Source of the DNA: Chromatiaceae bacterium
GTDB lineage: Bacteria; Pseudomonadota; Gammaproteobacteria; Chromatiales; Chromatiaceae
NCBI GenBank assembly: GCA_013426805.1
Contig: JACDZG010000064.1
Location: 1 to 39,224 of the forward strand
Reading direction: 5' to 3'
Length of the DNA stretch: 39,224 bases
Shown: piece after piece, positions 4,379-36,948 of the stretch
Layout: each line of letters starts with the position of its first letter
How positions within the stretch are numbered: position 1 is the stretch's first letter
The notes under the pieces: generated by a model
Database searches by the model: none
The model's input: only the letters and a program-made list of their open reading frames with translations
Told to the model about the DNA's origin: nothing
Made by a program: the position numbers and the translations under genes

Positions 4379-4400
4379 CGACCTGGAACAGCCCGCGTTG

Positions 4401-15629: not shown

Positions 15630-15867
15630 TCAAGTCCAGCGCTGCGCAAACCAGTGAAATCCCGTCGGACAGGTACAGGGTTGCGAGGTGGAGTGATGAC
15701 GCCAGCGGCGCTTTACGAAGACTCGGGTGAACGAGAGCCCCAGGCGCTACCGGAACAATCTCATCCTCCTGCCTGCCGAGAGTATCCGCGTCGACGGTCG
15801 CTATGGCCACGGTGCAGGCATTGATCGCCTGGGAGTGGGTCCACAAGGACCACATAGTCGCCATGAG
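15630..15867. other. Intergenic stretch without a supported gene
   Basis: The only long frame is on the minus strand from about 15864, with protein-like composition (MATMWSLWTHSQAINACTVA). It has no clear ribosome binding site and no recognised family, and it runs through the Fur-like site. It may be a remnant, but it is not called as a gene. Confidence 0.4.
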
Positions 15868-15897
15868 TTGTCCGCGATTCTAGATCGATGCTATAAT
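15868..15897 (+). promoter_or_regulatory. Sigma70-like promoter of the cyclitol/glycan cluster
   Basis: TTGTCC at 15868-15873 and a perfect TATAAT at 15892-15897 are separated by 18 bp. It faces the plus-strand cluster whose first gene starts at 16150, giving a leader of about 245 bases. No gene was found in that leader. Confidence 0.6.
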
Positions 15898-16149
15898 ATA
15901 CGGAGTTTAGAATTGGTTCCGTCGAATAACACAAAGTTAGGGACAGCATTCTACAATATCAGCGACTAGTGCTAACGGCCGATGTGCAAGCTTCCGCACG
16001 AAGCTGCCGGGCTGGGCAGCAATTCCAAATTTCGGTCGCCTCATGTCGATTCCGCGCCGGGGGATCCGGGAGGGGGCGTAGTCGCGAGACGTCGCCGAGC
16101 GTCGGACTACCCACGGCAACATCGTTGGTCAGATCGATGGAATACAGAG

Positions 16150-17385
16150 ATGAGACGCAGAGACTCTTTTCTGACCTTCGGGAAGCCTCAATTGGGAGAC
16201 GAGGAAGTGGCGGAAGTGCTGGATACGCTGGCTTCCGGTTGGCTTGGAACCGGGCCTCGCGTGGGTCGTTTTGAAGACGCTTTCAGCCGATATAAAGAGG
16301 CCGAGTACGTCGCTGCGGTCAACTCCTGCACTGCCGCGCTACATCTGAGTATGGTAGCCATCGATATCGCGCCCGGTGACGAGGTCATCACGACGGCACT
16401 GACCTTCTGCGCCACCGTCAATGCGATCATTCACGCCAAGGGAACTCCGGTCTTGGCGGACGTCGATCCGGACACGATGAACATCGACCCGAGCGACCTC
16501 GATCAGCGCATCACGCCACGTACGCGCGCCATCATTCCGGTTCACTTCGGAGGCCGCCCTTGCGAGATGGGCCGCATCATGGCGATCGCTCGCCGACACG
16601 GCCTGATCGTCATCGAGGATTGCGCACACGCGATCGAAACGGAACTCGATGGGACGAAAGCGGGAACCTTCGGCGATTTCGGTTGTTTTTCATTCTATAC
16701 CACCAAGAACGTCGTCACCGGAGAGGGCGGCATGGTGATCGCTCGCGAGGCCAAAGACATCGCCCGGATCAAGGTGCTCGCATTACACGGACTATCGGCG
16801 GATGCCTGGCGTCGTTATGGCGACATTGGGCATAAGCACTATTTCGTCACCGACTGCGGCTTCAAATACAACATGACCGATCTTCAGGCTGCCATCGGCA
16901 TCCATCAGCTTGCGCGGGTAGACCGGAACTGGCTTCGCCGTCAAGCGATTTGGCGGCGCTACCAAGCCGCTTTTCGGTGTTTACCGATTCAGTGCCCGAA
17001 CGAACCCGCGGCAGGCAGTCGTCATGCCTATCACCTTTATACCATTCGGGTCAATGAAGCGGAATCCGGTATCTCGCGGGATCGATTCCTGTCGGAAATG
17101 ATTGATCGGAACATCGGCGTCGGCGTTCATTATCTGTCGATCCCCGAGCATCCCTATTACGCTGAAACCTTTCGTTGGCAAGTCGACGCCTATCCCAATG
17201 CCCGTGAAATCGGCCGCACAACCGTGAGTCTTCCCCTTTCCGCGGCGCTCTCGAACCTGGACGTCGAGGATGTTGTTTCAGCGGTCGCCGATATATTGTC
17301 GGGCAGTGCCGGTGCGCGACGTCACCCCACCAACCGAGTTGCGGCCTTGACCCACGCTTCCCGCGACGATACGGATTGCACCTGA
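16150..17385 (+). CDS. DegT/DnrJ/EryC1/StrS-family aminotransferase
   Basis: The 411-residue PLP enzyme has the family landmarks: GSGW-like L-A-S-G-W-L-G-T-G-P substrate loop (28-37), cofactor-binding IEDCAHAIE (Asp157), and the Schiff-base lysine Lys186 in SFYTTKNVVTGEGG. It transfers an amino group, usually from glutamate, to a keto sugar or keto-cyclitol. The ATG at 16150 is chosen because the family N-terminus F-G-K-P-x-L-G-x-E-E-V follows at once; the frame is open earlier (15982) but codes Arg-rich sequence unlike the family. It is the first gene behind the promoter at 15868. In this cluster the likely substrate is an oxidised cyclitol or NDP-sugar; this is inferred. Confidence 0.85.
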   Translation: MRRRDSFLTFGKPQLGDEEVAEVLDTLASGWLGTGPRVGRFEDAFSRYKEAEYVAAVNSCTAALHLSMVAIDIAPGDEVITTALTFCATVNAIIHAKGTPVLADVDPDTMNIDPSDLDQRITPRTRAIIPVHFGGRPCEMGRIMAIARRHGLIVIEDCAHAIETELDGTKAGTFGDFGCFSFYTTKNVVTGEGGMVIAREAKDIARIKVLALHGLSADAWRRYGDIGHKHYFVTDCGFKYNMTDLQAAIGIHQLARVDRNWLRRQAIWRRYQAAFRCLPIQCPNEPAAGSRHAYHLYTIRVNEAESGISRDRFLSEMIDRNIGVGVHYLSIPEHPYYAETFRWQVDAYPNAREIGRTTVSLPLSAALSNLDVEDVVSAVADILSGSAGARRHPTNRVAALTHASRDDTDCT

Positions 17386-17407
17386 CTATGGAACAGGATC
17401 TTTGTTC

Positions 17408-18592
17408 ATGACTTACCCTTTGCGCGTTGCGTCGGTCACCCGACGGCTGACTATCGCCGGAGACGAAACGAGACTTCTCAATACGGCAGTCGCCTACGAT
17501 CCGCTCCGGATCGAGCATGTCGTAATCGTGATCTCGCCGACAGATGACGCGCAGGATCAACAGGTCGGTTCGATGCGTGATCGGTATCGTGCGCATGGCA
17601 TCGAGGTCGTCGAGTTGGGATTGTCGTTCGCAGGACCCGGTCGCCTTTTGAACCAGTTCAGGGCAGTCAGCCGACTCGCACGCGAGTTTAGGCGCAGTCG
17701 AATCGACGTGGTCGATGCGAGATTGGGGACGCCGACCGCTTTGGGCATAGTGGCCGCGAAGCTCGCCAAGGTCCCAGTGGTCGTGTCCACGGCCTACTAC
17801 ACAAGTTTCTGGAACCTTCCGATCAAGTATTTCGTCGGGCAGGCGTGCATGGCCGGGGTCGACGCACTGATCAGCGATGCGCAAGCAACGCTGGACGATT
17901 TCCGAAAATGGCGTTGGAGCCAAAAGGCGGAGCTGGTCTTGATACAAAACGGTGTTCCCCCGGCGCTGAGTAGCTTGACACGCGGCGAAGCACGGCGGGC
18001 CCTCGGTTTGCCGGACGACCCGGCGATCAAAGTGATCGGTCAGATCTCGCGGATCATTCCCCGCAAGGGTTACGAGATCTTCCTTGAGGCAGCCCGTTCG
18101 GTGCTTGATCAGCAACCGGATGTGTTCTTCGTCGGAGTCGGGTTCGTTGCCGAGGATCCGGGGTATCTCAATGCCCTACGCCGTATGGCGCAGGCGCTGC
18201 ACATCGAGGATCGCGTCAGACTCTTGAGCTATCCAGGCCCGATCGGCGATGTCTACAAGGCCGTCGACGTCTTCGCGCATCTGAGCACCTTGGATTCTTC
18301 GCCGACAGCCATTCACGAGAGCATGTCCGTTGGATTGCCCGCGGTGATTACCGCGCTTCCGGGCAATCTGGAGATCGTCGAAGACGGCATCACGGCGCTT
18401 CTGGTTCCGCCGGGAGATCCCGAACGCGCAGCGCAAGCGATGCAGAGGCTACTCCATAACCAGCCTTTGGCCGATCGATTGGGACAAGCCGCGCGGCAGC
18501 GATACGGCGAGCGGCACCGCCCGGAGATCATGGCGGCAGCGCATGATGCGCTGTTTCGCCGTCTCTTCGACGCGCATCGTCGGACAGCCTGA
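17408..18592 (+). CDS. GT4-family glycosyltransferase
   Basis: The 394-residue protein has a GT-B fold: an N-terminal acceptor domain with VDARLGTPTALGIVAAK, and a C-terminal donor domain with IGQISRIIPRKGYEIF and the E-x7-E signature region (HESMSVGLPAVITALPGN, then LEIVEDG). It would transfer a sugar from a nucleotide-activated donor in the cytoplasm. ATG at 17408 is preferred over TTG at 17402 because AGGA lies about 11 bases upstream of it. It follows the aminotransferase by 22 bases, in the same transcription unit. Donor and acceptor are unknown. Confidence 0.85.
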   Translation: MTYPLRVASVTRRLTIAGDETRLLNTAVAYDPLRIEHVVIVISPTDDAQDQQVGSMRDRYRAHGIEVVELGLSFAGPGRLLNQFRAVSRLAREFRRSRIDVVDARLGTPTALGIVAAKLAKVPVVVSTAYYTSFWNLPIKYFVGQACMAGVDALISDAQATLDDFRKWRWSQKAELVLIQNGVPPALSSLTRGEARRALGLPDDPAIKVIGQISRIIPRKGYEIFLEAARSVLDQQPDVFFVGVGFVAEDPGYLNALRRMAQALHIEDRVRLLSYPGPIGDVYKAVDVFAHLSTLDSSPTAIHESMSVGLPAVITALPGNLEIVEDGITALLVPPGDPERAAQAMQRLLHNQPLADRLGQAARQRYGERHRPEIMAAAHDALFRRLFDAHRRTA

Positions 18593-18776
18593 CGGTCGAT
18601 TCCGGAGGTATGGACGTGCGACGACGATTTCTCCAGACTAAACCGTGTGGCCACTGTGCTGATCGGGTTGATGCTGCATCGGGCAGGCCGCGCCGGTCCG
18701 CATCGGATCCGCTCCGATCTGAGTCCGGGTCGCAGGCCGCACCCGTTGACCCGGCTCAGCCGATTGCGGACCACCC

Positions 18777-19916
18777 ATGAGCGTCGCCGGACTGATCGTC
18801 GCCGGCGGCTCGGGGGAGCGGATGCAGCGCTCGGGAGCCTTACATCCGAAGCCCTTGGTGCCCATCCGGGGGGTCGCTCTCCTGGAGCGGAATCTGATCG
18901 CACTCCTCCGCGCCGGGATCATGGACATCCATATCGCGGTTTCGTCACGCGCCGACGGGGTTGGTGACTTCGCACGATCGCGTTGTCGCAAGGTCGCGGA
19001 GACCTTGGGCGCGAAGCTGGCGGTCATCACCGAGCCCCACCCCCTCGGCTCGATCGGCGCTTTGGCCTATCTCGGCGACCGAGCGGAGGTCGTGGTCGTC
19101 AACGCCGACAACCTCACCAGCTTGGATCTCAGGTCGATTCTCGCCAAGCATCGCGAAGCCGCAGCGACGCTCACCTTGGCTGTGCATGACGAGCCCTTTT
19201 CCATCCCATTCGGCGAGATCTGCATGGACGGGGACCAGGTGACCGCCTATCGAGAGAAGCCAAGCTTCAGGGTGCGCGTCTGCAGTGCGATCTCCGTGCT
19301 GAGCCCGAACGCCCTGACCGTATTCGACCCCGGCGAGACGATCGGGCTACCCGCCCTGGCGAACCGTCTCCTGAGCCGCAACGCTGCGGTATTTGGCTTC
19401 TTTCACGATGCACCTTGGATCGACGTCAACGACATGAGTTCGATCGACCGGGCAGAGGAGCTGGTCCGACACAACGCACAAGACTTCGAGCATTGGTCGA
19501 CATCACCCGACGACCAGGTCGTCGCGCTGCTCTGTTGCAGTCATCGGGGCGTCGCCTTGGTGCGAAGCCCGGAAGGTATGTTGCGGCTCCCCACCGTTGC
19601 GGCCGACACCGACGGCATGCCGATTTCCTCCATCCTGCCGGCCCTCGGCGCGGGTCATCGGCCCTCGGTGAGCGACATCGTGCCGATTGCGCTCTTCGAC
19701 GATATCGACACCGACGCGAGACGGATCATCCGCACGCGGTTGTTGTTGGCTGAGATCGGCGATGACCTGCTCGCAGACGACATCCAGTGGGTGCGTGAAG
19801 AAGACATCGCAGCGCTCGACGATATCGCACCCATGGTCGCGCGAGCCTTGGCCGCCAAGGCACGGCCGGAAGCCGAGGGTTGGGCACGCCGCGGCGACCG
19901 AACCGCCGAAGCGTGA
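18777..19916 (+). CDS. Sugar/cyclitol-phosphate nucleotidyltransferase with extra C-terminal domain
   Basis: The N-terminal ~235 residues are a nucleotidyltransferase: LIVAGGSGERM (6-16), HPKPLVPI (24-31), a VVVVNADN metal/substrate motif, EKPS and WIDVND. It should couple a sugar- or cyclitol-1-phosphate to an NTP. The C-terminal ~130 residues (from DDQVVALLCCSHRGVALVRS) look like a Nudix-type fold, with an LRLPTV strand and a W-V-R-E-E-D-I end. The catalytic Nudix box (G-x5-E-x7-R-E-x2-E-E) is absent, so this part may be a binding or regulatory domain. That assignment is by eye and tentative. The 184-base gap before it holds no convincing gene. It is followed four bases later by the first SDR gene. 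Confidence 0.75.
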   Translation: MSVAGLIVAGGSGERMQRSGALHPKPLVPIRGVALLERNLIALLRAGIMDIHIAVSSRADGVGDFARSRCRKVAETLGAKLAVITEPHPLGSIGALAYLGDRAEVVVVNADNLTSLDLRSILAKHREAAATLTLAVHDEPFSIPFGEICMDGDQVTAYREKPSFRVRVCSAISVLSPNALTVFDPGETIGLPALANRLLSRNAAVFGFFHDAPWIDVNDMSSIDRAEELVRHNAQDFEHWSTSPDDQVVALLCCSHRGVALVRSPEGMLRLPTVAADTDGMPISSILPALGAGHRPSVSDIVPIALFDDIDTDARRIIRTRLLLAEIGDDLLADDIQWVREEDIAALDDIAPMVARALAAKARPEAEGWARRGDRTAEA

Positions 19917-19920
19917 CCCT

Positions 19921-20856
19921 ATGACCAACATGACGATTGCGGTCACGGGTGGTGGCGGCTTCATCGGCTCGTACCTAGTCCGCGCCCTTGCCGATGGGAA
20001 GAACCCCGTTCGCACCTTGCTGGGCCCCAAAGGGGCGCCGGTCGTGTTGCCGCCCGAGGGCGTCGAGAACTGCTGCGGCGACATCTGGGACGCTGCGATC
20101 TTGGCGCGGCTGTTCGAAGATGTGTCGGCAGTCGTGCATCTGGCAGGGCCGCCTTCGGTCGCCGCCTCCTTCCGGGCGTCGGTTGAGTACGCGCGCGCCC
20201 ACGTCAGCGGCACGGCGGCCGTGGTCGATGCCTGTATCCGTGTCGGTGTGCCGCGCCTGGTCTATGTGTCCTCCGCGGAGGTTTACGGGCAGCCGTTGCG
20301 CAATCCGGTCGATGAAGACGCACCGCAAGCACCGCGTTCCCCCTATGCGGCCGCCAAGATCGGAGCGGAGGCATTCGTTCGTGCCGGTGCCCGGTCTGCT
20401 GGTCTCGAGGCCGTGATTGGCCGCCCCTTTCTCGTCTACGGCCCCGGGATGCCTGCGACCTCCTTGGTCGGATCGCTCGTTCGCCAAGCGAGGCAGGGTA
20501 ACCTGATCGAGCTGTTCGACCCGCGCCCGATCCGTGACTACTGCTTTGTCGCAGATCTGACGGATGCTCTGATCGCGTGCTGCCGCGCAGCATTGCCTGC
20601 GCCGGTCCGTGTCTTCAACCTCGGCAGCGGGCAAGGTCTTTCGGTCGCCGATCTCGCCCGCCGCGTCCTGGCGCTCTCGGGCGGTGAGGGAGAGATACGG
20701 ATTGCCGAGTCGCCGGACCGACCCCCCGGCGCAGCAATCCTCGAGTTGGTCAGCGATCCGAGCCGAGCGGCGCGAGAGTTGGGCTGGCGCGCGAGCACTA
20801 CAATCGAGAGCGGCATCGCGGAGATGCTGCGGATGCCTTTGGAGGACAACGCATGA
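19921..20856 (+). CDS. NAD-dependent epimerase/dehydratase (extended SDR) 1
   Basis: The 311-residue protein has the Rossmann motif TGGGGFIGSY near the N-terminus, VSSAEVYG, and the catalytic Y-x3-K as SPYAAAK. These define extended SDRs acting on nucleotide sugars (4-epimerases, dehydratases, reductases). The ATG at 19921 sits four bases after the nucleotidyltransferase stop, and the end overlaps the next gene by four bases (ATGA). It is therefore tightly coupled to both neighbours. The exact reaction cannot be read from the sequence; an NDP-sugar or NDP-cyclitol is likely. Confidence 0.85.
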   Translation: MTNMTIAVTGGGGFIGSYLVRALADGKNPVRTLLGPKGAPVVLPPEGVENCCGDIWDAAILARLFEDVSAVVHLAGPPSVAASFRASVEYARAHVSGTAAVVDACIRVGVPRLVYVSSAEVYGQPLRNPVDEDAPQAPRSPYAAAKIGAEAFVRAGARSAGLEAVIGRPFLVYGPGMPATSLVGSLVRQARQGNLIELFDPRPIRDYCFVADLTDALIACCRAALPAPVRVFNLGSGQGLSVADLARRVLALSGGEGEIRIAESPDRPPGAAILELVSDPSRAARELGWRASTTIESGIAEMLRMPLEDNA

Positions 20857-21986
20857 TCCGAAACCACTTGAAGGTGCTGATCACCGGTGCGCAAGGGTTT
20901 CTCGGGCGCTATCTGGTCGCGGATTGGCTCGCCGCGGACCCCGTGGTCTCGATTATCGGCGTTGGTCGCTCCGCGAGGCTGGATAACCACTTCACCCATA
21001 GCGTGCATTGGGGTGAGATTCGAGTTCCGGCGCCGATGCCGCCAACGCTCGTGAACGGCCTCCGCAACTCACGTTACGCCTATCGCACGCTCGATGTGAC
21101 GGACACCGCGGCACTCAGGCAGCTCGTGGCGGAACACCGGCCGGACCTCGTCGTGCACCTGGCCGCCGCGCTTCGCGATGACCCGCCGTCCGAGCTCGTT
21201 GCAGCAAACATCGGCGGCGTGGTCTCCGTTTTGGAGTCACTTGCCTGTCTCGGGGCCTCCGCACCGCCCGTCCTGTTCGGATCGTCGGGCTCGATCTACG
21301 GGTCCGTTCCGGACCAACATCTCCCGTTGAGCGAAGACAGGGTCTGCGCACCCATTGATCCCTATTCAGCGACCAAGCGAGCCGCCGAGGAGCTCGGACG
21401 CATTCTGGCGAATCAATTCGGGGTGCCGGCCTTGTGGGCGCGCATCTTCAACCCCGTTGGCCCGGGTCAAGACGAGCGCCACCTCTGCGGATGGCTCGGC
21501 CGGCAGGTCGCGGCAATCGCAGGGGGCGCTCGCGCCCCCCTGATCTCGGTCGGCCCGCTTCACACCACCCGTGATTTTATCGACGTCCGCGACACCGCCC
21601 GCGCCCTGCGACTGATCGCCACGCGCGGCGAGCCTGGTCTCGCCTACAACGTTGCCGCGGGTCGAGAGACCAGCGGCCGCCAAATTCTTGAGACCCTACT
21701 GCGTGTCGCGGGCCTCGCGGATCGGGTCACACTCGAGATCCGCCCCGGCCGGTCTGCCGACATTGACCGGGTCTATGCCGACCGAACGCGCCTGGATGCG
21801 CTGGGCGATCGACCATGTTACGCTATCGAAGAAAGCTTGGCTGCGGTCCTTGCCTATTACGCAGACTTCGTAGCCCCGTCCTGCCCGGACGAGCAGCACT
21901 GCACAGAACCCAGGTGCAATACCCCAGCGAACAGTCTCGACGTGCTTCTCGATGAGCGCGTCACGCATTTTCGTGAGCTGTTGTAG
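20853..21986 (+). CDS. NAD-dependent epimerase/dehydratase (extended SDR) 2
   Basis: The 377-residue protein has VLITGAQGFLGRY (8-20), FGSSGSIYGS, the catalytic YSATK and the C-terminal RIFNPVGPGQDERH and TTRDFIDVRD motifs. These last motifs resemble GDP-4-keto-6-deoxymannose reductase (RMD) and GDP-mannose dehydratase-like enzymes. It overlaps the preceding SDR gene by four bases. A C-terminal tail of about 40 residues with several cysteines (SCPDEQHCTEPRCN) extends beyond the usual fold. It probably reduces or epimerises a keto intermediate of the pathway. Confidence 0.83.
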   Translation: MIRNHLKVLITGAQGFLGRYLVADWLAADPVVSIIGVGRSARLDNHFTHSVHWGEIRVPAPMPPTLVNGLRNSRYAYRTLDVTDTAALRQLVAEHRPDLVVHLAAALRDDPPSELVAANIGGVVSVLESLACLGASAPPVLFGSSGSIYGSVPDQHLPLSEDRVCAPIDPYSATKRAAEELGRILANQFGVPALWARIFNPVGPGQDERHLCGWLGRQVAAIAGGARAPLISVGPLHTTRDFIDVRDTARALRLIATRGEPGLAYNVAAGRETSGRQILETLLRVAGLADRVTLEIRPGRSADIDRVYADRTRLDALGDRPCYAIEESLAAVLAYYADFVAPSCPDEQHCTEPRCNTPANSLDVLLDERVTHFRELL

Positions 21987-21993
21987 AGTCCCC

Positions 21994-23220
21994 ATGCCGC
22001 CCCGAAACACCCTCGACCAGTCCGGAAGGCCGGACGCTGCAGAACCCGTGACGGAGTGCGCGTACCGGTGCGCGGTCGTCCGGCATGTGCAACAAGACGT
22101 CGAGTTCTCGGATGCGGTGCTCGCCCGGGCGCTTCGCTCGCTAAAGCACTGGACGGAAGGCAGAAACTGCCTGATCGTAACGACGCCCACCGTCAACCGT
22201 CTCTATCGCGAGGTGATTGTCGGCGCCGTATCGGAGAGCGCAGAAATCCTTGTGCTCGACTGCGACGAGTCCCGTAAGGATCTAGCCCAAGTGGAGCGCA
22301 TCTGCAGCCACGCGTCCTCCGTACCGATCAATCGCGGGGATCTACTGGTCGGAATCGGCGGCGGTGTCTGTACCGACATCACCGCTGTCGCCGCCGCCTG
22401 GATCCGGCGCGGGATTGATCACGTCCGCGTCCCGACCACCTTAGTGGGACAGGTCGACGCGGGTATCGGGTATAAGTGTGCGATCAACTTTCGCGGCTAC
22501 AAGAGTTACCTTGGATCCTTTCACGGCCCACGTCATGTCCTGATTGCCCCGAAGTTCCTCCAGAGTCTCTCGCCCAAGCAACTGCGCGAAGGTTTTGCCG
22601 AGATTGTCAAGATCGCAATTGTATGCGATCCCGAGCTCTTCGATTTCGTCGAGCAGTACGCCGAGACGTTGGTCCGGACCGGATTTCGGAGTCCACAAAG
22701 CCAAGGAACGGAGATCGTATGGCGGGCCGCCACCCGCATGCTGGAAGAACTGGAGGACAATCCGTTCGAGGACCGCGGATTCGGGCGTCCGGTCGATCTC
22801 GGGCACACCTTTAGTCCGTTGCTTGAGTCGGTATCCGGGTACCGACTGTCCCATGGCGAAGCCGTGGCGATCGATATGGCTCTCACCATGGCGATCTCTA
22901 CGACACTCGGGCTGACCGAGTCGATATTCGAGGACCGCGTACTCGCTCTCCTGACGGCGCTGGGGCTACCCATCTACTGCCCCTTGCTCAGTCCGGAGTT
23001 GTGCGATGACGCGCTGCAACAGGCTGCCCGGCACAGGGGTGGACGAGCGCACCTGGTCTTGCCGACCAAGATCGGAGCCACACGGTTCCTGGAATCGGCC
23101 GAGGACCTGGACCGGACGGTGCTCGCCATCGCGATCAATCGGCTTGCTGAACGAATCGATGCAACGACCGGCGAGCAGCTCGACGTTTCCGAGTCGCCGG
23201 CGCCAGCGGACCCTCGCTGA
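21994..23220 (+). CDS. Sugar-phosphate cyclase, 2-epi-5-epi-valiolone synthase-like
   Basis: The 408-residue protein belongs to the dehydroquinate synthase superfamily. NAD-binding GGGVCTD lies at 122-128, and the zinc ligands are Glu203 (FAEIVK), His271 (DLGHTF) and His287 (SHGEAVA). Where AroB has GHTFGHAIE this protein has GHTFSPLLE, and it has RVPTTLVGQVDAGIGYK and NFRGYKSYLGSFH. In my recollection these are features of the C7-cyclitol synthases (EEVS such as ValA and AcbC) that cyclise sedoheptulose 7-phosphate. Length also fits EEVS (about 390-415) better than AroB (about 360). The ATG at 21994 lies 7 bases after the preceding stop; an in-frame ATG at 21952 is possible. The next gene is a ROK kinase, as expected for this pathway. 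Alternatives are an EVS or another cyclase subtype. Confidence 0.75.
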   Translation: MPPRNTLDQSGRPDAAEPVTECAYRCAVVRHVQQDVEFSDAVLARALRSLKHWTEGRNCLIVTTPTVNRLYREVIVGAVSESAEILVLDCDESRKDLAQVERICSHASSVPINRGDLLVGIGGGVCTDITAVAAAWIRRGIDHVRVPTTLVGQVDAGIGYKCAINFRGYKSYLGSFHGPRHVLIAPKFLQSLSPKQLREGFAEIVKIAIVCDPELFDFVEQYAETLVRTGFRSPQSQGTEIVWRAATRMLEELEDNPFEDRGFGRPVDLGHTFSPLLESVSGYRLSHGEAVAIDMALTMAISTTLGLTESIFEDRVLALLTALGLPIYCPLLSPELCDDALQQAARHRGGRAHLVLPTKIGATRFLESAEDLDRTVLAIAINRLAERIDATTGEQLDVSESPAPADPR

Positions 23221-23249
23221 GCCGAACGACAGCAGGACGACCTCACGGT

Positions 23250-24293
23250 ATGGACGAACCCCGGATCCTCGTCTTCGACATCGGCGGCACATGCTCGCGG
23301 GCCGGCGTTTACGATGTCGGCTCCGGTCGCGTGGTGCGCTCCGCGCGCTTGGAGACTCCGTCATTTCATCGGTTTCCGCGAGCCTCTGCGGACGAACTTC
23401 GTTCGATGCTCTACGCGAGTGTGCGTGTTCTTGCCGAACGCCTGGGTGACCCAAGCCCGCGGTTGGTCTCGCTTGGCTTTCCGGGACCGGTCAACGCGCA
23501 GGGGATTGCCTTGCGTGCCCCGACGCTTTGGGGTCGAGACGATCGACCGGAGCCGGTGGCGGCAAGCCTCCGGCAGTTGTGGCCGACGGCAAGCATTCTG
23601 GTTTCGAACGATCTCAGTGCCGCGGGACATTGCTTCCTGCGACACGACGAGGAGGACCTGTGCGTGATCACCGTCAGCTCCGGCATCGGCCACAAGGTCT
23701 TTCTGAATGGTCGGCCAGTCGTCGGAGAGGCTGGTCGCGGGGGCGAGATCGGACATCTCCGCGTTGATTTTTCCGCGGATGCACCTGTCTGTGACTGCGG
23801 AGACAAAGGTCACCTCGGAGCAGTCTCCTCAGGTCGAGCTTTGCGCCACCAGGCATTGCGCCTCGCCCGCTTGCACCCCGCGGCCTTTGTCGATTCGTCC
23901 CTCGGCCACATCCTCCGCGGCGATCCATCGCAACTCGACAATGCCCTGATCGCAGAGGCGTTCCGCGCAGGCGACCCCTGGGCAAGCCGTGTGGTCGACC
24001 GCGTGGCCGAACCGCTGGGACCGGTCCTCGCCGGCATCCACTGCGTCGTGGGTGTCGAACGTTTCGTCGTCATGGGAGGGCTCGCCCATGCCCTGGGGGA
24101 GCGTTACCTCGAGAAGGTCGCGACAGCAGCCGCTCGAAGCGAATGGGCGCTTGGCCAGGATTGGTACCGGATGCTGGAGCTTGGGGAGATGGGCGACGAC
24201 GCGGGTTTGGTAGGCGCCGGACGCTTGATGAGCCGGGCGGCACGCTTCGACCGGGTGGCTGAGCCCGCCGATCAATTGGATCTCACATCCTGA
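23250..24293 (+). CDS. ROK-family kinase, candidate C7-cyclitol kinase
   Basis: The 347-residue protein has the phosphate-binding DIGGT (10-14), catalytic Asp121 in SNDLSAAG, GGEIGH (164-169) and a zinc-type motif CDCGDKGH (181-188). ROK enzymes are glucokinase-like sugar kinases or repressors. There is no N-terminal DNA-binding domain, so this is a kinase. In the zinc motif the usual third Cys is His188 and the following Glu of C-L-E is Gly190, which marks divergence from glucokinases. Valiolone kinases of the validamycin and acarbose pathways are also ROK proteins. Adjacency to the cyclase makes a phosphorylated C7-cyclitol the most attractive product. Confidence 0.78.
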   Translation: MDEPRILVFDIGGTCSRAGVYDVGSGRVVRSARLETPSFHRFPRASADELRSMLYASVRVLAERLGDPSPRLVSLGFPGPVNAQGIALRAPTLWGRDDRPEPVAASLRQLWPTASILVSNDLSAAGHCFLRHDEEDLCVITVSSGIGHKVFLNGRPVVGEAGRGGEIGHLRVDFSADAPVCDCGDKGHLGAVSSGRALRHQALRLARLHPAAFVDSSLGHILRGDPSQLDNALIAEAFRAGDPWASRVVDRVAEPLGPVLAGIHCVVGVERFVVMGGLAHALGERYLEKVATAAARSEWALGQDWYRMLELGEMGDDAGLVGAGRLMSRAARFDRVAEPADQLDLTS

Positions 24294-24336
24294 GCGGGGA
24301 TCCAACAGGAGCATTTTCCGAACCCTGGAGGACAAG

Positions 24337-25542
24337 GTGAAAAGCAAGCTCGCCGTCGTCGGCGGCAGCACCCCATTTACCGCCGCCCTGGTCGACGCCA
24401 TCGAAGCGCGCGCGGAGGCAATACCGCCACACGTCTTGATGCTCAACGGGCAGAATCCCGAGAGTCTTGACAGCGTCGCCCGGTACGCTTGGAACCGGCT
24501 TTCCAACCTGAACTGGAGCATCGACTGGACGATCGACATGGGCCGCGCCGTGCGCGGCTCCCGCATCGTGCTTCACCAGGCGCGATACGGCGGCAACGAG
24601 GGGCGTCGGTTCGACGAAGAGGTTGCGCTCGCATGCGGCATCGCGCCGGATGAAACGCTTGGTCCGGCAGCGCTTCAATGCGCTTTACGCATCTCGCCCA
24701 TGCTTGAGAGCACCTGTCGTGTTTTAATCGATGCGTGCCCCGATGCCTGGGTTCTCAACCTGACGAATCCACTGAGCATCACCACGGCGCGCATGATACG
24801 AGCCGGCGTGCAGCGAACCGTCGGGTTGTGCGAGCTTCCCCGGGTAACCGTCCGAACGGCCGCGGCCATCTTAGGTCAAGACCCGCTGCAAGCCGACTGG
24901 GCCTACACCGGGCTGAACCACCGCGGGTTCATCGTCGCGCTGAGCTGGGAAGGCAGAGATTACATTCGCGACCTTCCTGCCAGGCTTTGCAATACCACCC
25001 TTGACGGCGTCTGCGCCGATGAGATCGCAGCGCTTGGGGCCATACCAACCAAGTACTTTCGTTTGCTCCGAGGCGACGTCGTCAACCCGCAGGGCGGCCG
25101 CGCCCTGTTTCTCGCCGAACTGCGTCAGCGCATCCTCGAAGAGCTGCGCGCCGACCCCACGCAATCCCCGCCAAGTCTGCGGCAACGCTATCACGCCTGG
25201 TATTCGGAATCCGTGGTCCCTTTCATCGAAGCACTCTCGAATCCGAAACCGATGCTCCTCGAGATGAACGCCATGACTCACCGCGGCATTGTCGAGGAGG
25301 GTCGCGCCCTCGTCAGCACGCAAGGGATCGGCCCGATGATCGGGCCGACGACCCCGGCAGCGATCGACCCCTGGCTCGCACGTTTCGTCAACCATGAGCA
25401 ACTTCTGCTCGCAGCCGTCGCCGACCCGTCGCACACCGCGATCTCTGGCGCGCTTGCAGCAGACCCGCTGGTTCGGGCTTCTTCCGTGGCGGATTGCGCT
25501 GCCCTCATCTGCCGAAACCTCGGCTACGCCGTTCCGGCCTGA
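24337..25542 (+). CDS. Glycoside hydrolase family 4-like NAD-dependent enzyme
   Basis: The 401-residue protein has a GH4 layout: N-terminal Rossmann motif VVGGSTPFT (7-15), Q-A-R-Y-G-G (81-86) followed by RRFDEE, N-P at 144-145, GLCELP with Cys165 and GLNHRGF with His195. Cys and His are the manganese ligands of GH4 6-phospho-glycosidases. These act by NAD-dependent oxidation at C3, elimination and reduction. GTG at 24337 is the start because GGAGG stands 5 bases upstream. As the last gene of the operon it may oxidise or cleave a phosphorylated glycoside or cyclitol; a catabolic 6-phospho-glucosidase seems unlikely in this context. Confidence 0.8.
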   Translation: MKSKLAVVGGSTPFTAALVDAIEARAEAIPPHVLMLNGQNPESLDSVARYAWNRLSNLNWSIDWTIDMGRAVRGSRIVLHQARYGGNEGRRFDEEVALACGIAPDETLGPAALQCALRISPMLESTCRVLIDACPDAWVLNLTNPLSITTARMIRAGVQRTVGLCELPRVTVRTAAAILGQDPLQADWAYTGLNHRGFIVALSWEGRDYIRDLPARLCNTTLDGVCADEIAALGAIPTKYFRLLRGDVVNPQGGRALFLAELRQRILEELRADPTQSPPSLRQRYHAWYSESVVPFIEALSNPKPMLLEMNAMTHRGIVEEGRALVSTQGIGPMIGPTTPAAIDPWLARFVNHEQLLLAAVADPSHTAISGALAADPLVRASSVADCAALICRNLGYAVPA

Positions 25543-25576
25543 CGGCGATCTACCCAAGCCGGCCATGCATCGGGGA

Positions 25577-26698
25577 TCATGCCCTCGCCAAGGCTTGCCG
25601 ATACACCTGCTCCGTCAGTGCAGCGGCATCGTCCCAGTTATAATGTTCGAGGATTCGCTCACGATTGCGTCGCGCGGCCTGCCGCGCCCCGTCCAGATCA
25701 CCGAGCGTGTCTTCGATCGCGCGCGCCAGAGCCAACCGATCTCCGGCCGCCACCAAGAGATGGCCGACCTCGGATCGCCCCAAGGCCTCGGCATGGGCCG
25801 GAATATTGGTGGCGATGACCGGCACGCCATAGCCGACCGCTGTCAACAGTGTCAGAGGCATGCCCTCGACGAAGGATGCCGTTAGGAACAATGCCGTATT
25901 CGAGAAGAGCTCGGCCAACTCATCCCCGTAGACGAAACCGGTAAGCACCACACGGCGATCACGCTCCGCAAGGCGCCGCACACGGCGGACGTAAGCATTG
26001 CTGTAGGTCGAATCACCGACGACAACCAGCTTGAAATCGGTCTTCAGACCCGAAAAGGCGTACAGCAAGGTCTCGACACCCTTTTCTGGTACAAAGCGCG
26101 CGACGAAGAGTAAGTAGCGCCCGGGATCCAGTTTGAGATCTCGACTAAAAGAACCCGGTATGCGCGCCATCGTCGCCACAACGCCGTTCGGCACATACCG
26201 GAGCGTCTTGCGATACCGGGTCGCATAATAAGCCACGAGCCATCTGGCGTTTGCGATGGTCGCATCCGGAAGATGCGCGCTGACCCAGCAACCGATACTC
26301 AAAGCGCGCCTCGCAAACCATCCCCATTTCCCGCGCTCCTGATCCAGGCCATGCACCGTCAGCACGATCACCGCGGATGAAGAGACCTTGGCCAACGGAA
26401 CCAGCAACCCAGGGCCGATCCCTTGAAAGTGTATGACGTCATACCGCTTACCCCGTGATGCCCATAGGCACAGCGCGGTGTGAACAATCGCATCAAGATG
26501 CTTCGTTCCGATCGTAGGTAGATATGCGAGGCGTATCCCCCGATGGGTCGTAGGCCGCTCCGCCGCGTAGTTTCTCCGGACGTAAACCGTTACCTCATGA
26601 CCCCGGGCAACCAACCGAGCGCCGAGTTCCTCTACATAGCGCTCGACTCCGCCGTGGGTTGCCGGCACCCCTCGTTGCCCGACCATCGCGATGCGCAT
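25577..26698 (-). CDS. GT4 glycosyltransferase with DUF1972-type N-terminus
   Basis: The 373-residue protein begins MRIAMVGQRGVPATHGGVER, the DUF1972-type N-terminus seen in rhamnosyl- and other polysaccharide glycosyltransferases. The donor domain has LLFVARFVPEKGVETLL and the E-x7-E region (SFVEGMPLTLLTAVGYGVPV). It converges on the plus-strand cluster with 34 bases between stops and no obvious terminator. It follows the radical SAM gene by 47 bases on the same strand and is probably co-transcribed with it. It likely glycosylates a lipid-linked or cyclitol-containing acceptor. Confidence 0.85.
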   Translation of the reverse strand: MRIAMVGQRGVPATHGGVERYVEELGARLVARGHEVTVYVRRNYAAERPTTHRGIRLAYLPTIGTKHLDAIVHTALCLWASRGKRYDVIHFQGIGPGLLVPLAKVSSSAVIVLTVHGLDQERGKWGWFARRALSIGCWVSAHLPDATIANARWLVAYYATRYRKTLRYVPNGVVATMARIPGSFSRDLKLDPGRYLLFVARFVPEKGVETLLYAFSGLKTDFKLVVVGDSTYSNAYVRRVRRLAERDRRVVLTGFVYGDELAELFSNTALFLTASFVEGMPLTLLTAVGYGVPVIATNIPAHAEALGRSEVGHLLVAAGDRLALARAIEDTLGDLDGARQAARRNRERILEHYNWDDAAALTEQVYRQALARA

Positions 26699-26745
26699 CC
26701 GATTGCTTCCTTAAAGATCTCGCGTGCAACGGCGCTGAATTGCGC

Positions 26746-27852
26746 TCACGACACCCCGACGCGACCCAGCTTGCCCGTCAATGCGAACCAAGCCAGCTTG
26801 GTAAGGTCTTTCGCCAGCCCGGTCGTTACGAAGCAGCCGCTGTTGCAGCTCAGACAAACGCTGCGCGCCCGGTCTTTTCGCGTTGCGACATTGTTTGGAT
26901 GATAATAAATCTCGTCGAGACTTCTTCCTGACCGTACGTTTCCGATCTTCGGCTCGGAGAGGCAGTAGTAAACATCGCCGAAACTATCGAATACAAAGGC
27001 ATCGGTCGCGAAGGGACAGGGTGTCGTCCGGAGCTGATCCTGCTTGTAAAGTGCAAGCATGTCGGCCCAGTAATAGGATTTCAGGAATGATTTCGGCTTG
27101 CGAAAGTCGCGATCACGCGCCAAACTGCCGAGAAGAGAATACAGATCATCCCGCTCGGTCTTTCCGAAATCCAGTGTGGCGATTTGCGCTAAATTTTGAA
27201 CGTAGGTCTCATGAAACCCGATCAGTTGGAAGCTGAAACCGATCTCACGGCTCTCACACCAACTTTGGGCATCCCGAATCCGTCGGAGATTCTCACGACA
27301 TATCAACCCTGCAGCGCCGAATGAAAAGCTGCAGCTTTTCTGGAGAGACTTGAGGGCCAATAACGTGGCCGAGGTTTTCTCAAACGCATGCGGAGTTCCG
27401 CGCAATTCATCATGCGTCGACCCCACACCGTCCAATGACACAGTGATTGATAGCATGATCCCGCGAGCCTGACATAGACGCGCAGCCTCTTTCGTGAACG
27501 CCAACACGCGGTTAGTATGGAACCCATGCGTCACGAAGCTCAACAGCTGCAGTCGCGGCATCTTCTCGATGTATAAGGCCACCAGCCTTGAGAGATCCGG
27601 ATGCAGCGTCGGCTCGCCACCCGCTATCGTGAGATGCATGATCTTCCGGAAGATCCGACCTTCGCCGAGAATCGTCTGCCAATCAGTGTAGGTCAATTCG
27701 TTTTCGGGACGCATTTTCCAGATGTTGCACATCTTGCATCTTGAATTGCATCGGTAGGTGAGATTAATCAACACCCCACTCGGAGCAAGCACGCGATGGT
27801 TGCGCAGCAGATGATAGCTTGCGAATGACGAGAGTAAGCTCAAAAGATTCAC
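26746..27852 (-). CDS. Radical SAM/SPASM-like protein
   Basis: The 368-residue protein has the radical SAM cluster motif C-x3-C-x2-C at Cys35, Cys39 and Cys42 (CNSRCKMC), followed by TIAGGEPTLHPD, the GGEP SAM-binding motif. The C-terminal part has FDSFGDVYYC and CLSCNSGC, typical of SPASM-type auxiliary Fe-S binding. Such enzymes modify peptides, lipids or sugars by radical chemistry. The N-terminal 20 residues are hydrophobic, and a hydrophobic stretch lies near the end. Next to a glycosyltransferase and the cyclitol cluster, a role in tailoring is possible. The substrate is unknown. Confidence 0.85.
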   Translation of the reverse strand: MNLLSLLSSFASYHLLRNHRVLAPSGVLINLTYRCNSRCKMCNIWKMRPENELTYTDWQTILGEGRIFRKIMHLTIAGGEPTLHPDLSRLVALYIEKMPRLQLLSFVTHGFHTNRVLAFTKEAARLCQARGIMLSITVSLDGVGSTHDELRGTPHAFEKTSATLLALKSLQKSCSFSFGAAGLICRENLRRIRDAQSWCESREIGFSFQLIGFHETYVQNLAQIATLDFGKTERDDLYSLLGSLARDRDFRKPKSFLKSYYWADMLALYKQDQLRTTPCPFATDAFVFDSFGDVYYCLSEPKIGNVRSGRSLDEIYYHPNNVATRKDRARSVCLSCNSGCFVTTGLAKDLTKLAWFALTGKLGRVGVS

Positions 27853-27931
27853 ACCGGCTCCCTATGCAGTTTGCGCACACGGCCGACGACACTATGAGGT
27901 GTGTCACTCGAAGGCTAAGGCGCCACGAGCA

Positions 27932-28111
27932 TTATGTCTGGTTACACCGCGCAAGTCGAGCGGCACACCAGACGGCGGTATAGAGATCTGTTTCAGCGAC
28001 GTACTGGTCCAGACCCCTCAGATCGGCCTCGATCATCATCCCGGCCGTAGCGCGCAAGGCACGCGTCGTCAGGGCTTCCAGCCCTAACAATATCAGGCCA
28101 AGATGGCCTGA
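27932..28111 (-). other. Possible short ORF or gene remnant upstream of the radical SAM gene
   Basis: A 59-codon frame ends with TAA at 27932-27934 and reads LGLEALTTRALRATAGMMIE, then DLRGLDQYVAETDLYTAVW. The composition is protein-like, with codon usage like the neighbours. There is no ATG at its start and no ribosome binding site, so it is probably a remnant. The family is not recognised. Confidence 0.25.
28071..28111. repeat. Two adjacent perfect hairpins
   Basis: AGGGCT-TCC-AGCCCT (28071-28085) is followed by TCAGGCCA-AGA-TGGCCTGA (28093-28111). Neither has a T-tract. They may be terminators or RNA structures, or a relic within the minus-strand frame. Confidence 0.5.
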
Positions 28112-28506
28112 CTAAGCACTCGGCGAGCCCCCAACTGGCCGGAGTCATGATCGACGCCATCAATTCTGTCATAAGTTATTGATTAGGAGAGTCTTTACGC
28201 GTTTGAGCAGAGTGTTCTGGGGTCAAGCTGCGACCTGTCGGGTCCGACAGCCTCCCGGGCACGCGCCGCAACATCCGTGTTACAACCATCCCTGTCGATC
28301 CCCGGGCAACAGAACTATAAGGATTCGCTACGTGGACCGACGGCCGCACAGACGACGCGGTGGTCCAGGCTAGACCGAAGGCCACCGGACGGACCGCCGG
28401 CCTTGCAATCCGACTAAACGGCACGAAGGTCAAGGCCCCGGGCGCCGCGCACTTCCCCAGTCCGGGCACCGCAGGTCAAAATTTCCGCTTTCATCGCGCA
28501 AAGGTG
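28112..28506. other. Intergenic stretch before the suf operon, no gene seen
   Basis: Both strands carry only short frames with Arg/Pro/Ser-rich composition. No tRNA cloverleaf, repeat or clear IscR-type site was recognised before the suf promoter. Confidence 0.5.
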
Positions 28507-32684: not shown

Positions 32685-33917
32685 TCAGGGCTGTTGATTC
32701 ACGGGGTTGTGTTCCGGTTCGGTGGGGGGGGGTGACAACCGGCATTCAGTGGGGTCGAGGCGGGCACCCAGCGCCGGGTTCGTGGCGCACAGCGACTTCA
32801 GGATCGCTTGGATGCGGATCGCCTTGTTGAAGTTGTCGATCGGCTTGCAGGTTTGTTGATCCAGGTCGCGCCCCTGATGATGAAGCGCCGCGACGGCGCC
32901 GTGCCGATCGAATATAGGGGCACCGGAACTGCCGGGATTCGACCCGCAGTCATGGTAGAGACGGACATCGCCGCTATCCGCGATCCATCCCGGCGCGGGC
33001 GTTCGCAGCACCGTGCAGTGATCACTCAGTTGCTTTGGCAAACAGGCCATATGGTGAATCAGGCGCAGCGTGTCGTCGGTTGTTGTCGGCGACCCGGCTG
33101 CGACGAGCTGCGCCGGGCGCACCGGCCCGGACCCCGCGAGCGGAGCGATCCGCAGGAGCGCGAAGTCGAGTTCCCGGCTCGTCGCCAGCACCTCGTTACA
33201 CTGGTACTCTTGGCCGTTCCTATCGCCATCCCATGAGAAATCGATGAGCGTTCGCGCACAGCGATCGGGGTTCCAGAAGAACCGCTTGTCGCGGTCCGGC
33301 AAACCGCCACAGTGCCAGTTCGTCAGGAACAGGTCATCAGCGACCGCCACGCCGGTGCAGCACCAGGACTGCCGGTCCTCGCTCGACGTGAGCAGACCGA
33401 CGGAGTCGCCCAGCCGCTGTGCGGCCTCGGGCCCGTTGGGGTAGAGGGGGCGCGGCGGCGCCTGCGCGTTGATGAGTGAGTAGAACGTCTTTTCACCGCT
33501 GCTCGGCATGGCGATGTACTCCGTGACCTCGATTGCGGTGTCCGCGGCGGCGCCGATCAGGTCCAGCATGGCGCGGGAGCCGTCGATGCGGCGCGTCCAC
33601 AGGGTCGGCGAGCCGCCGAAGTCCGCGGGGCGTATGATTTGCGCGGCGCGGCCGGCACCATCCCGGACCACGAGGTACCAGGGCGCGGCGCCGGCGGCGC
33701 GCAGCAGGAACCGGATCCGCAGGTATTTTGCGCCGTCCTCCTCAACCCGCGGCTGCACGCGGATATCTTTTCCGCGCTCCCGTTGTTTTCCGAACTCGGT
33801 GCCGCCCACCAGCGCACCGCACTCGGCTGCCGTCGCCCGCGGGTTGAGGTCGGCGGCAAGGACCGCAAGGACCGCAAGGACAGTGAATAACGCGCGTCGG
33901 CGCCGACACTGATTCAC
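32685..33917 (-). CDS. Secreted trypsin-like serine protease
   Basis: The 410-residue protein starts with a Sec signal peptide (RRRR n-region, then ALFTVLAVLAVLA and a cut near ATAAE). After an N-terminal domain of about 160 residues comes a chymotrypsin-like fold: His202 in LTNWHCG, Asp251 in ELDFALLR and Ser331 in NPGSSGAP, a complete triad. Several Cys suggest disulphides. GTG at 33917 overlaps the subtilase stop as GTGA and has AGAAGG 8 bases upstream; GTG at 33926 is the alternative. It is the last gene of a three-protease operon. A Pro-rich C-terminal tail ends the protein. Confidence 0.85.
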   Translation of the reverse strand: MNQCRRRRALFTVLAVLAVLAADLNPRATAAECGALVGGTEFGKQRERGKDIRVQPRVEEDGAKYLRIRFLLRAAGAAPWYLVVRDGAGRAAQIIRPADFGGSPTLWTRRIDGSRAMLDLIGAAADTAIEVTEYIAMPSSGEKTFYSLINAQAPPRPLYPNGPEAAQRLGDSVGLLTSSEDRQSWCCTGVAVADDLFLTNWHCGGLPDRDKRFFWNPDRCARTLIDFSWDGDRNGQEYQCNEVLATSRELDFALLRIAPLAGSGPVRPAQLVAAGSPTTTDDTLRLIHHMACLPKQLSDHCTVLRTPAPGWIADSGDVRLYHDCGSNPGSSGAPIFDRHGAVAALHHQGRDLDQQTCKPIDNFNKAIRIQAILKSLCATNPALGARLDPTECRLSPPPTEPEHNPVNQQP

Positions 33918-36082: not shown

Positions 36083-36087
36083 GGCGT

Positions 36088-36948
36088 TCAATCTCCGTAT
36101 TTCGCTTGATGCGCTCGAATGTCCGACGGTGTCAGTTGGAACTTGAGATCGCGCTTGCCGCCGCACAGGTAATGCATGACGGAGCGCGAGTCGTATGCGG
36201 TGAGTCGGCGCCAGGTCCCGCCCTCGCGGTAACATCCGGGGATGCCCTCGATATGTTCATGACGGTAGCCAAGGATATGACCAAGTTCATGTCGCAAGAT
36301 GCCGACCGGATCGTAACGGGTGGTGAAGTAGCTCTGATCGATGACCAACACCATGTTCGCGGCCTCGTCGGAGGGAAAAAACGAGGTTGCGAGCAGGCCG
36401 CCGCTGCTCACCTTGCGGACGACGAAGTGCATGGGTTTGCGGCGCGGCCGCTGCACGGCATCGTTGAGTCGGAACGACAGTCCGCACGACGGGCACGCAT
36501 CGATCCAGGCTTTGGCGGCTTTCGCCAGGTTCTCCTGGACGATGGCAGCCTGTCCCGGACCAAACGAGGCGCGGTCGATCGAATAGCTGAGCTTGCGGTT
36601 ATCCCGCGGCCAGATGTCGTCGCGACCCGCGCTCGTGTTCACGATCAGTTCATTAGACAGGAGCGGTGCGCCGCCGGACGCGGCATTGACCAGATAGTCC
36701 CGCAGTTGCTGGTCGGTCAGCAGCAGATCACCTTCCACCACGTAACGATCATCATACCGTGGCAGAGTCGCGGCGAATGCGGCACGGCGTGCGGTATCGT
36801 AAGGATCACCGAGTGCCGCGCGCAGCACCCGTTCGGCCTGTGCACGCCCGTCGTCGGGGTCCTCGGTCGCGGCCGGTCCGTTCGGATCAAGCACTAGGAA
36901 CAGCGAGACCAATCCCCAGCCAAACCTTCGCGCGGTTTTCATTTTCAT
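36088..36948 (-). CDS. Secreted matrixin-like zinc metalloprotease
   Basis: The 286-residue protein has a short signal peptide (RRFGWGLVSLFLVL) and a C-terminal zincin domain: HELGHILGYRH with His220, Glu221, His224 and His230, and a Met-turn S-V-M-H-Y (Met258). This is the HExxHxxGxxH metzincin signature, closest to matrixin-like proteins. A pro-region of about 100 residues lies between. The ATG at 36948 or 36942 follows GAGGGAG; the frame is open further but without a signal peptide. It is the first gene of the protease operon and is divergent from the SulP gene. Confidence 0.85.
   Translation of the reverse strand: MKMKTARRFGWGLVSLFLVLDPNGPAATEDPDDGRAQAERVLRAALGDPYDTARRAAFAATLPRYDDRYVVEGDLLLTDQQLRDYLVNAASGGAPLLSNELIVNTSAGRDDIWPRDNRKLSYSIDRASFGPGQAAIVQENLAKAAKAWIDACPSCGLSFRLNDAVQRPRRKPMHFVVRKVSSGGLLATSFFPSDEAANMVLVIDQSYFTTRYDPVGILRHELGHILGYRHEHIEGIPGCYREGGTWRRLTAYDSRSVMHYLCGGKRDLKFQLTPSDIRAHQAKYGD

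Follow-up and report, generated by a model that had tools for sequence, protein, structure and literature searches.

The window analysed here, 39,224 nucleotides of contig JACDZG010000064.1 from a Chromatiaceae bacterium (assembly GCA_013426805.1), carries an operon of eight genes on its plus strand at 16150-25542. Pfam matches assign the genes to an aminotransferase, a glycosyltransferase of family 4 (GT4), a nucleotidyltransferase, two short-chain dehydrogenases/reductases (SDR1 and SDR2), an AroB-like cyclase, a ROK kinase and a GH4-like protein, the same enzyme classes that an earlier sequence-only reading had named. We consider it likely (probability about 0.7) that the operon encodes an acquired pathway to a C7-cyclitol (carba-sugar), of a type found mainly in Gram-negative bacteria, in which the GH4-like NAD/metal enzyme does work of the AcbO/AcbL type. 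The best-known C7-cyclitols, acarbose and validamycin, are made by actinomycetes. A conserved second pathway type in Gram-negative and uncultured lineages would indicate undescribed pseudo-sugars and, if our proposal is true, a glycosidase-fold enzyme acting in synthesis would be a new use of GH4 redox-elimination chemistry. Much of the gene set is also present in named strains of Mesorhizobium and of Methylobacterium (DSM 16961, DSM 25844), which makes the pathway directly testable.

Placement of the cyclase

Compared with solved structures, the cyclase scored highest against ValA (4p53, 206 bits), followed by 5tpr (158 bits; listed as a dehydroquinate synthase and presumably a desmethyl-4-deoxygadusol synthase, DDGS), the best 3-dehydroquinate synthase (DHQS, 140 bits) and 2-deoxy-scyllo-inosose synthase (DOIS, 80 bits). 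Its 203 bits fell short of both NCBIfam aroB cut-offs (305 and 333 bits), and a separate AroB-type gene lies on contig 296 of the same genome. The cyclase motif reads VDLGHTFSPLLE, whereas the AroB of its own genome and 29 AroB-type loci of relatives read LNLGHTFGHAIE or a close variant. Aligned with ValA, the cyclase keeps AEIVK, GHT and SHGEAV, the metal ligand regions. Its frame also opens at ATG 21952, and this 422-residue form was the query in searches; with ATG 21994 the protein has the 408 residues of the earlier reading.

Two further positions were followed in an alignment of 118 rows (30 AroB-type and 88 others, the window included). We take them to be ValA Asp281 and His360, which separate 2-epi-5-epi-valiolone synthase (EEVS) from DDGS. 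The Asp of VDLGH, present in the window, is Asp in 84 of the 88 non-AroB rows, Ala in four rows of the DDGS branch and Asn in 30 of 30 AroB-type rows. The His of ARHRGG, likewise present in the window, is conserved in 83 of the 88, with Thr in four DDGS-branch rows and Gln in locus L036; among the AroB-type rows the residue is Val (24), Ala (4), Ile (1) or Asn (1). As the window cyclase keeps the ValA-like Asp and His, AroB and DDGS are excluded by these sites.

In a 61-row tree drawn from the 118 rows, which holds no DOIS row so that DOIS was compared by score only, eight AroB rows were set apart at 100/100. The window cyclase grouped with two Methylobacterium cyclases at 100/99, inside a 15-row branch also at 100/99. 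The same branch holds cyclases from metagenome-assembled genomes (MAGs) of Deltaproteobacteria, from Rokuibacteriota and Latescibacterota, from the symbionts Candidatus Paraburkholderia kirkii and Caballeronia, and from Bradyrhizobium, Roseobacter and Mesorhizobium. L117, a row on a long branch, met the AroB group; when it was left out, the window branch persisted in a tree of 39 rows (12 rows, 99/98). Holding the window together with three of five AroB rows lost 292 log-likelihood units and was rejected by the approximately unbiased (AU) test (p 3.2e-5), as was holding it with four DDGS-branch rows (77 units lost, p 2.7e-4), by which DDGS was ruled out. The cyclase was thus found neither within AroB nor, by score, close to DOIS, the two placements that the sequence-only reading had named as fatal to its proposal.

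A divergent second 3-dehydroquinate synthase serving shikimate-like metabolism would also carry a DHQ_synthase domain, and a topology with the window and all five AroB rows as one side lost 17 units and was not rejected (AU p 0.18). We read this last value as probably reflecting an uncertain root, that is, the deep order of these cyclases, and not AroB membership. With scores below the aroB cut-offs, the AroB residues missing, an AroB-type gene elsewhere in the genome and nesting in AroB rejected, a divergent AroB was ruled out and this explanation is extremely improbable: by its sequence features, the window cyclase is not an AroB.

With ValA and AcbC the cyclase shares the sugar phosphate cyclase family, the Zn ligands, the VD.GH(T/S)FSP motif and the Asp and His at the two sites. 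It differs from ValA in being 38% identical over the aligned part, in its separate, mainly Gram-negative branch, in reading Lys-Ser and not Lys-Asn, and in the enzymes encoded downstream. On this evidence the cyclase is very probably an EEVS. Several points weigh against such an assignment. The 15-row branch falls outside the ValA-type branch. Lys-Ser occurs in the window and eight other non-AroB rows, compared with Lys-Asn in the remaining 79 and in 30 of 30 AroB-type rows, so that the comparison with EEVS active sites proposed in the earlier reading yielded two matches to ValA and one departure nearby. Asp and His are also found in actinobacterial rows resembling 2-epi-valiolone synthase (EVS) and in the divergent L117, and hence do not set the window apart from EVS-like enzymes. 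In the cyclases of Mesorhizobium and Roseobacter (L044, L045, L047-L049) GHTIAHPLE takes the place of GHTFSP..E, which returns a His close to its AroB position; their product may be a different cyclitol, and the activity of the branch may therefore not be uniform. PMC4426668 describes a 14-site fingerprint plus two such distinguishing sites for these cyclases, and our check covered 2 of the 14 published sites plus the metal ligands.

These observations leave room for a cyclase that yields another stereoisomer (an EVS-type or new product from sedoheptulose 7-phosphate) or uses another heptulose phosphate, and the separate branch, the Lys-Ser pair, the variable GHT(F/I)(S/A)(P/H) and the sharing of both sites with EVS-like rows would all fit it. 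We regard this as quite unlikely, given that the window cyclase agrees with ValA in the GHTFSP motif and at both checked sites and that the P. kirkii cyclase falls in the same branch. The P. kirkii plasmid EEVS is linked to the production of the cyclitols streptol and kirkamide in PMC8599487.

Row L117 (Gloeothece verrucosa plasmid, 3722-4936) is a very divergent AroB-like protein with GHWAAHRLE and an end branch of 2.3. It is annotated as 3-dehydroquinate synthase and is probably something else.

The GH4-like protein and its cassette in other genomes

The ROK kinase, encoded next to the cyclase, has the ROK fold family match PF00480 and the motif SNDLSAAG, the Asp of which we take to be catalytic. 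It carries His where the third Cys of the usual ROK motif would stand, as do 21 of 21 ROK rows scoring above 100 bits from cyclase loci. A role as cyclitol kinase is probable, somewhat less firmly than EEVS activity for its neighbour. In PMC9200736, AcbM and ValC are described as ROK-like, and cyclases such as ValA and AcbC pair with ROK-like kinases. The earlier proposal of an EEVS-type cyclase adjoining a ROK kinase in one operon is supported.

The proposal that these are validamycin/acarbose-type enzyme classes held in part. The acarbose route AcbC-AcbM-AcbO-AcbL-AcbN shares with the operon its cyclase, ROK kinase and nucleotidyltransferase classes. It differs in that a Pfam scan of ten proteins at 15982-27852 gave no recognisable AcbO/ValD-type epimerase or AcbL-type dehydrogenase; the GH4-like protein is found there instead. 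We take AcbO and AcbL to belong to the vicinal oxygen chelate and zinc-type dehydrogenase families, respectively. The GH4-like protein, the sole GH4 match in the genome, keeps a GG.(T/S)P.T-type NAD motif, the Cys of CELP and the His of GLNHRGF, the latter two presumably metal ligands. Its structure model (pLDDT 90.5) led Foldseek to GH4 6-phospho-glucosidases (TM-score ~0.8, 18-24% identity). With BglT, GlvA and Gan4C it has in common the fold, the NAD motif and the Cys and His ligand motifs; it differs in reading CELP and GLNHRGF, in an identity of ~18-27% and in its biosynthetic neighbourhood.

As summarised in PMC10628242, GH4 enzymes act on 6-phospho-hexosides by oxidation of C3 with bound NAD, beta-elimination, addition of water and reduction. 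In acarbose synthesis, phosphorylation comes before C2 epimerisation by AcbO (PMC9200736) and a dehydration step by AcbL, assayed with Zn2+ and NADPH (PMC7081202); the acarbose pathway passages of these two papers do not mention a GH4-like protein. A hexose 6-phosphate is similar to a C7-cyclitol 7-phosphate, and the AcbO and AcbL steps follow phosphorylation; we therefore propose the GH4-like enzyme for one or both of them. No link between GH4 and valiolone-type biosynthesis was recognised in search listings of open-licence papers, a scope that makes this a weak negative.

Named genomes were scanned with a three-row alignment (window cyclase, ValA and 5tpr); of 528 confirmed loci the best 80 were retained and searched with the window genes (1e-8). 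Some of the 80 are not EEVS loci: L077 and L110 belong to the DDGS branch, and EVS is what L074, L098 and L104 resemble. Fifteen of these 80 loci encode a GH4-like protein, in seven phyla by NCBI names: Methylobacterium (2), Mesorhizobium (4), Roseobacter (1), Deltaproteobacteria MAGs (2), Acidobacteriota (2) and one each in Rokuibacteriota, Latescibacterota, Eremiobacterota and Streptomyces. MAGs account for 7 of the 15, and their binning could be wrong. All the GH4-like genes lie less than 10 kb from the cyclase gene, at L045 ~8 kb away on the opposite strand. In the cyclase tree, 12 of the 15 rows of the window branch, the window included, come with a GH4-like protein, L035, L038 and L040 being those without.

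Other window genes accompany it, their presence being counted above 100 bits. The nucleotidyltransferase and SDR2 were each present at 9 of the 15 GH4-bearing loci and at 0 of the 65 others (Fisher p 2e-8 for each), SDR1 at 8/15 versus 2/65 (p 8e-6), GT4 at 5/15 versus 0/65 (p 1e-4), the aminotransferase at 5/15 versus 4/65 (p 0.01) and the ROK kinase at 8/15 versus 13/65 (p 0.02); these p values ignore the relatedness of loci, and several contigs are short. A Rokuibacteriota contig (L039) has counterparts of all eight window genes, in one direction and in the order EEVS, ROK, aminotransferase, GH4-like, Gfo/Idh/MocA, methyltransferase, cupin, nucleotidyltransferase, GT4, SDR1, SDR2. As much of the gene set recurs in other phyla, the grouping of the operon is beyond chance. 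The GH4-bearing cassette looks like the new part, making the operon a variant of known C7-cyclitol pathways. The P. kirkii (L038) and Caballeronia (L035) symbionts share with the window the cyclase branch and the ROK His variant; they differ in that the GH4-like protein, nucleotidyltransferase, SDR1, SDR2 and GT4 were unmatched at 1e-8 (L035 being a 12-kb contig) and in having what reads from sequence as a class III-type aminotransferase.

Could the GH4-like protein instead serve as an ordinary phospho-glycosidase, trimming or recycling a pseudo-disaccharide that carries phosphate, in a genuine cyclase pathway with its epimerase and dehydratase encoded elsewhere? Its nearest structures are 6-phospho-alpha/beta-glucosidases, and with the catalytic ligand motifs kept, hydrolysis is chemically possible. 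However, in an 18-row tree (partial L036 left out) the window protein and 14 cassette proteins were separated from the hydrolase references at 99/99, although three references are few; the genes stay within 10 kb of a cyclase in seven phyla; and neither the window operon nor the scanned Rokuibacteriota open reading frames gave a recognisable AcbO- or AcbL-like gene. We therefore think such a hydrolase unlikely.

A biosynthetic action of the GH4-like enzyme on the cyclitol appears somewhat favoured by its sequence and setting, and a specific role as epimerase/dehydratase is put forward tentatively. Equally tentative is the wider suggestion that a GH4-fold NAD/metal enzyme was recruited from phospho-glycoside breakdown and, in a mobile cassette spanning seven phyla, replaces the epimerase and/or dehydratase on the way to an NDP (nucleoside diphosphate)-activated pseudo-sugar, mostly outside actinobacteria. 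Several findings count against these proposals. The assigned role is read from gene neighbourhood and cofactor motifs. The GH4-like proteins of L051, L061 and L067 scored 77-116 bits against the window protein, below an ordinary 6-phospho-beta-glucosidase (L119, 128 bits); the tree nonetheless grouped them with the cassette. The Mesorhizobium and Roseobacter loci hold a GH4-like protein together with an apparent medium-chain dehydrogenase, which is at odds with AcbL being simply replaced at these loci. Plasmid loci of Rhizobium rhizogenes and Agrobacterium vitis have a cyclase and a ROK kinase with no annotated GH4; Gram-negative EEVS loci lacking GH4 thus exist. Finally, a second kinase, phosphomutase or phosphatase linking a 7-phosphate to a 1-phosphate was not recognised in the operon by Pfam.

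Plasmid GH4 proteins were tried as a source of more cassettes and set aside: among the 20 of 654 matching records listed, identity was below 28% and most were annotated as glycosidases. NUDIX-type genes lie close to the cyclase at L061, L036, L037 and L109 and are possibly a further cassette member, and a cupin gene occurs at L037 and L039.

Proposed pathway and nature of the product

In the pathway that we propose, the cyclase would, as its sequence strongly suggests, convert sedoheptulose 7-phosphate to 2-epi-5-epi-valiolone, which the ROK kinase, by analogy with AcbM, would phosphorylate at O7. The GH4-like enzyme, with bound NAD and a divalent metal, might then oxidise a ring hydroxyl and take the neighbouring acidic proton; C2 would be epimerised and/or water eliminated, which would amount to AcbO and/or AcbL work, with the 7-phosphate mimicking glucose 6-phosphate. 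The nucleotidyltransferase would give an NDP-cyclitol, SDR1 and SDR2 would adjust oxidation state or stereochemistry, and the GT4 would join the NDP-cyclitol to an acceptor. The domain of the nucleotidyltransferase resembles MurU and mannose-1-phosphate guanylyltransferases by profile and Foldseek. A Nudix-like C-terminal domain on this protein, an idea prompted by a NUDIX gene of its own at L109, by relatives of that gene at L036, L037 and L061 and by the strand/helix order of the model, was rejected (no Pfam match up to E 5, hhalign probability 0.3%, low model confidence there).

The aminotransferase may aminate the cyclitol or a partner sugar in this organism, and would not be a conserved step. 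Its best PDB match is ArnB (1mdo, 277 bits). Aminotransferases above 100 bits occur at 9 of the 80 loci, with 122-178 bits and 28-35% identity to that of the window; with identity at this level it was dropped as a core gene despite its counts at GH4-bearing loci. No match to it was found at the two nearest (Methylobacterium) loci, of which L033 is cut by the contig end. As the aminotransferase is not a conserved part, the term 'aminocyclitol' used in the earlier reading is unproven, and the claim was weakened further by the enzyme being closer to ArnB than to the aminotransferases at related loci. Whether the product contains an amino group is, in our estimate, an even bet.

An alternative use of the same enzymes would be a surface glycan or glycolipid: the cyclase would give a rare carba-sugar that the GT4 adds to a polysaccharide, and another, ordinary amino sugar would come from the ArnB-like aminotransferase and the SDRs. 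Surface loci typically form segments that vary between close relatives, and the operon lies in such a segment, together with an ArnB-like aminotransferase, epimerase-family SDRs and two GT4-type genes; no exporter was recognised in the operon. Against this, no polymerase, flippase or priming transferase was recognised among the 19 window proteins scanned (from 14507 rightward), and we rate a surface product as possible at best, if slightly less doubtful than a trimming hydrolase. A GT2 gene adjoins the cassette at L041. Pseudo-glycosyltransferases related to GT20 (VldE) and GT5 (AcbS) are described in PMC9200736, which expects further families. No GT20- or GT5-related enzyme was recognised among the ten proteins at 15982-27852, where the glycosyltransferases match GT4-type Pfam models.

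Probable acquisition, gene order and surroundings of the operon

To trace the origin of the acquired C7-cyclitol operon that we propose, 92 relatives, some incomplete (7 of the same genus, 50 of the same family and 35 of the same class), were searched with the cyclase. Matches were obtained in 84, none better than 4e-43, and 29 of the 29 motifs read were AroB-type. None of the 57 relatives sampled from the genus and family showed the cyclase-ROK operon. In 398 Pseudomonadota genomes only that of the window passed (cyclase 1e-48, GH4-like 1e-35); the sampling is sparse, as both cyclase and GH4-like protein do occur in named Methylobacterium and Mesorhizobium.

The operon and two minus-strand genes make up a variable 12.7-kb segment (Table 1) missing from two close relatives, G002 and G006. 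Flank matches stop at 15653 in both and restart at 28312 in G002 and 28334 in G006, with nothing matched between; the flanks are 91.5-93.7% identical. The slot holds a different open frame of 489 codons (L134 1304-3225 in G002, L135 1291-3156 in G006), suggesting that the site may be a hotspot of gene exchange. Together, the lack of a cyclase-like match in the 92 relatives and of the segment in these two indicate that the operon was probably acquired horizontally. In M. variabile a repC-type replication gene is found close to the locus, which suggests a plasmid and fits transfer between lineages. The 489-codon frame, read from its sequence, looks like a secreted papain-type peptidase.

The genome comprises 7.6 Mb in 349 contigs and encodes a photosynthetic reaction centre (two adjoining PF00124 matches), hence the host is probably photosynthetic. 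The earlier reading had described ATGA overlaps in the operon, a description that applies to one junction, SDR1/SDR2 (20853-20856). The remaining junctions are gaps of 4 to 184 bp: aminotransferase-GT4 22 bp, GT4-nucleotidyltransferase 184 bp, nucleotidyltransferase-SDR1 4 bp, SDR2-cyclase 7 bp, cyclase-ROK 29 bp and ROK-GH4 43 bp. A second, putative promoter is possible in the 184-bp gap. Neither an exporter nor a phosphatase, second kinase or mutase was recognised by Pfam in the operon, the ten proteins at 15982-27852 being covered.

Table 1. Features of the operon and of the variable segment in the window.
Feature	Coordinates	Strand	Evidence and remarks
Variable 12.7-kb segment: operon and two minus-strand genes; missing from G002 and G006	15654..28311		blastn
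DegT/DnrJ/EryC1/StrS aminotransferase, ArnB-like (nucleotide-sugar type); variable member of the set	16150..17385	+	PF01041 DegT_DnrJ_EryC1 1.4e-116; start ATG 16150
GT4 glycosyltransferase	17408..18592	+	PF00534 Glycos_transf_1 1e-30; ATG 17408, alternative TTG 17402 in open frame
Sugar-1-phosphate-type nucleotidyltransferase (MurU/mannose-1-P guanylyltransferase-like), C-terminal domain of ~140 residues	18777..19916	+	PF00483 NTP_transferase 8.6e-13; Foldseek
SDR1, extended SDR, GalE-like by motifs SSAEVYG and YAAAK (read by eye)	19921..20856	+	PF01370 6e-45
SDR2, extended SDR, motifs SSGSIYG and YSATK (read by eye)	20853..21986	+	PF01370 2.8e-41
Putative sedoheptulose-7-phosphate cyclase, EEVS-like, 408 aa	21994..23220	+	DHQ_synthase 2.5e-30, DHQS_C 7.4e-23; ValA 4p53; motifs; trees
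ROK-family kinase	23250..24293	+	PF00480 2.6e-28; CDCGDKGHLG
GH4-like NAD/metal protein, GTG start, CELP and GLNHRGF motifs; proposed cyclitol-phosphate epimerase/dehydratase	24337..25542	+	PF02056 Glyco_hydro_4 9.8e-22
Second GT4-type glycosyltransferase, in variable segment, outside conserved set	25577..26698	-	Pfam; 80 loci unmatched at 1e-8
Radical SAM protein, in variable segment, outside conserved set	26746..27852	-	PF04055 9.8e-14; 80 loci unmatched at 1e-8

The second GT4 and the Radical SAM protein were dropped as pathway members, having no match at the 80 loci. The Radical SAM gene, which adjoins the GT4-type gene, lies in the part of the window lowest in GC (53% at 27001-28000). Farther along the minus strand, at 32685-37077 and downstream of SUF genes, two putative protease genes stand in a row (Trypsin_2 and S8 subtilase); the gene after them matches matrixin below the cut-off.

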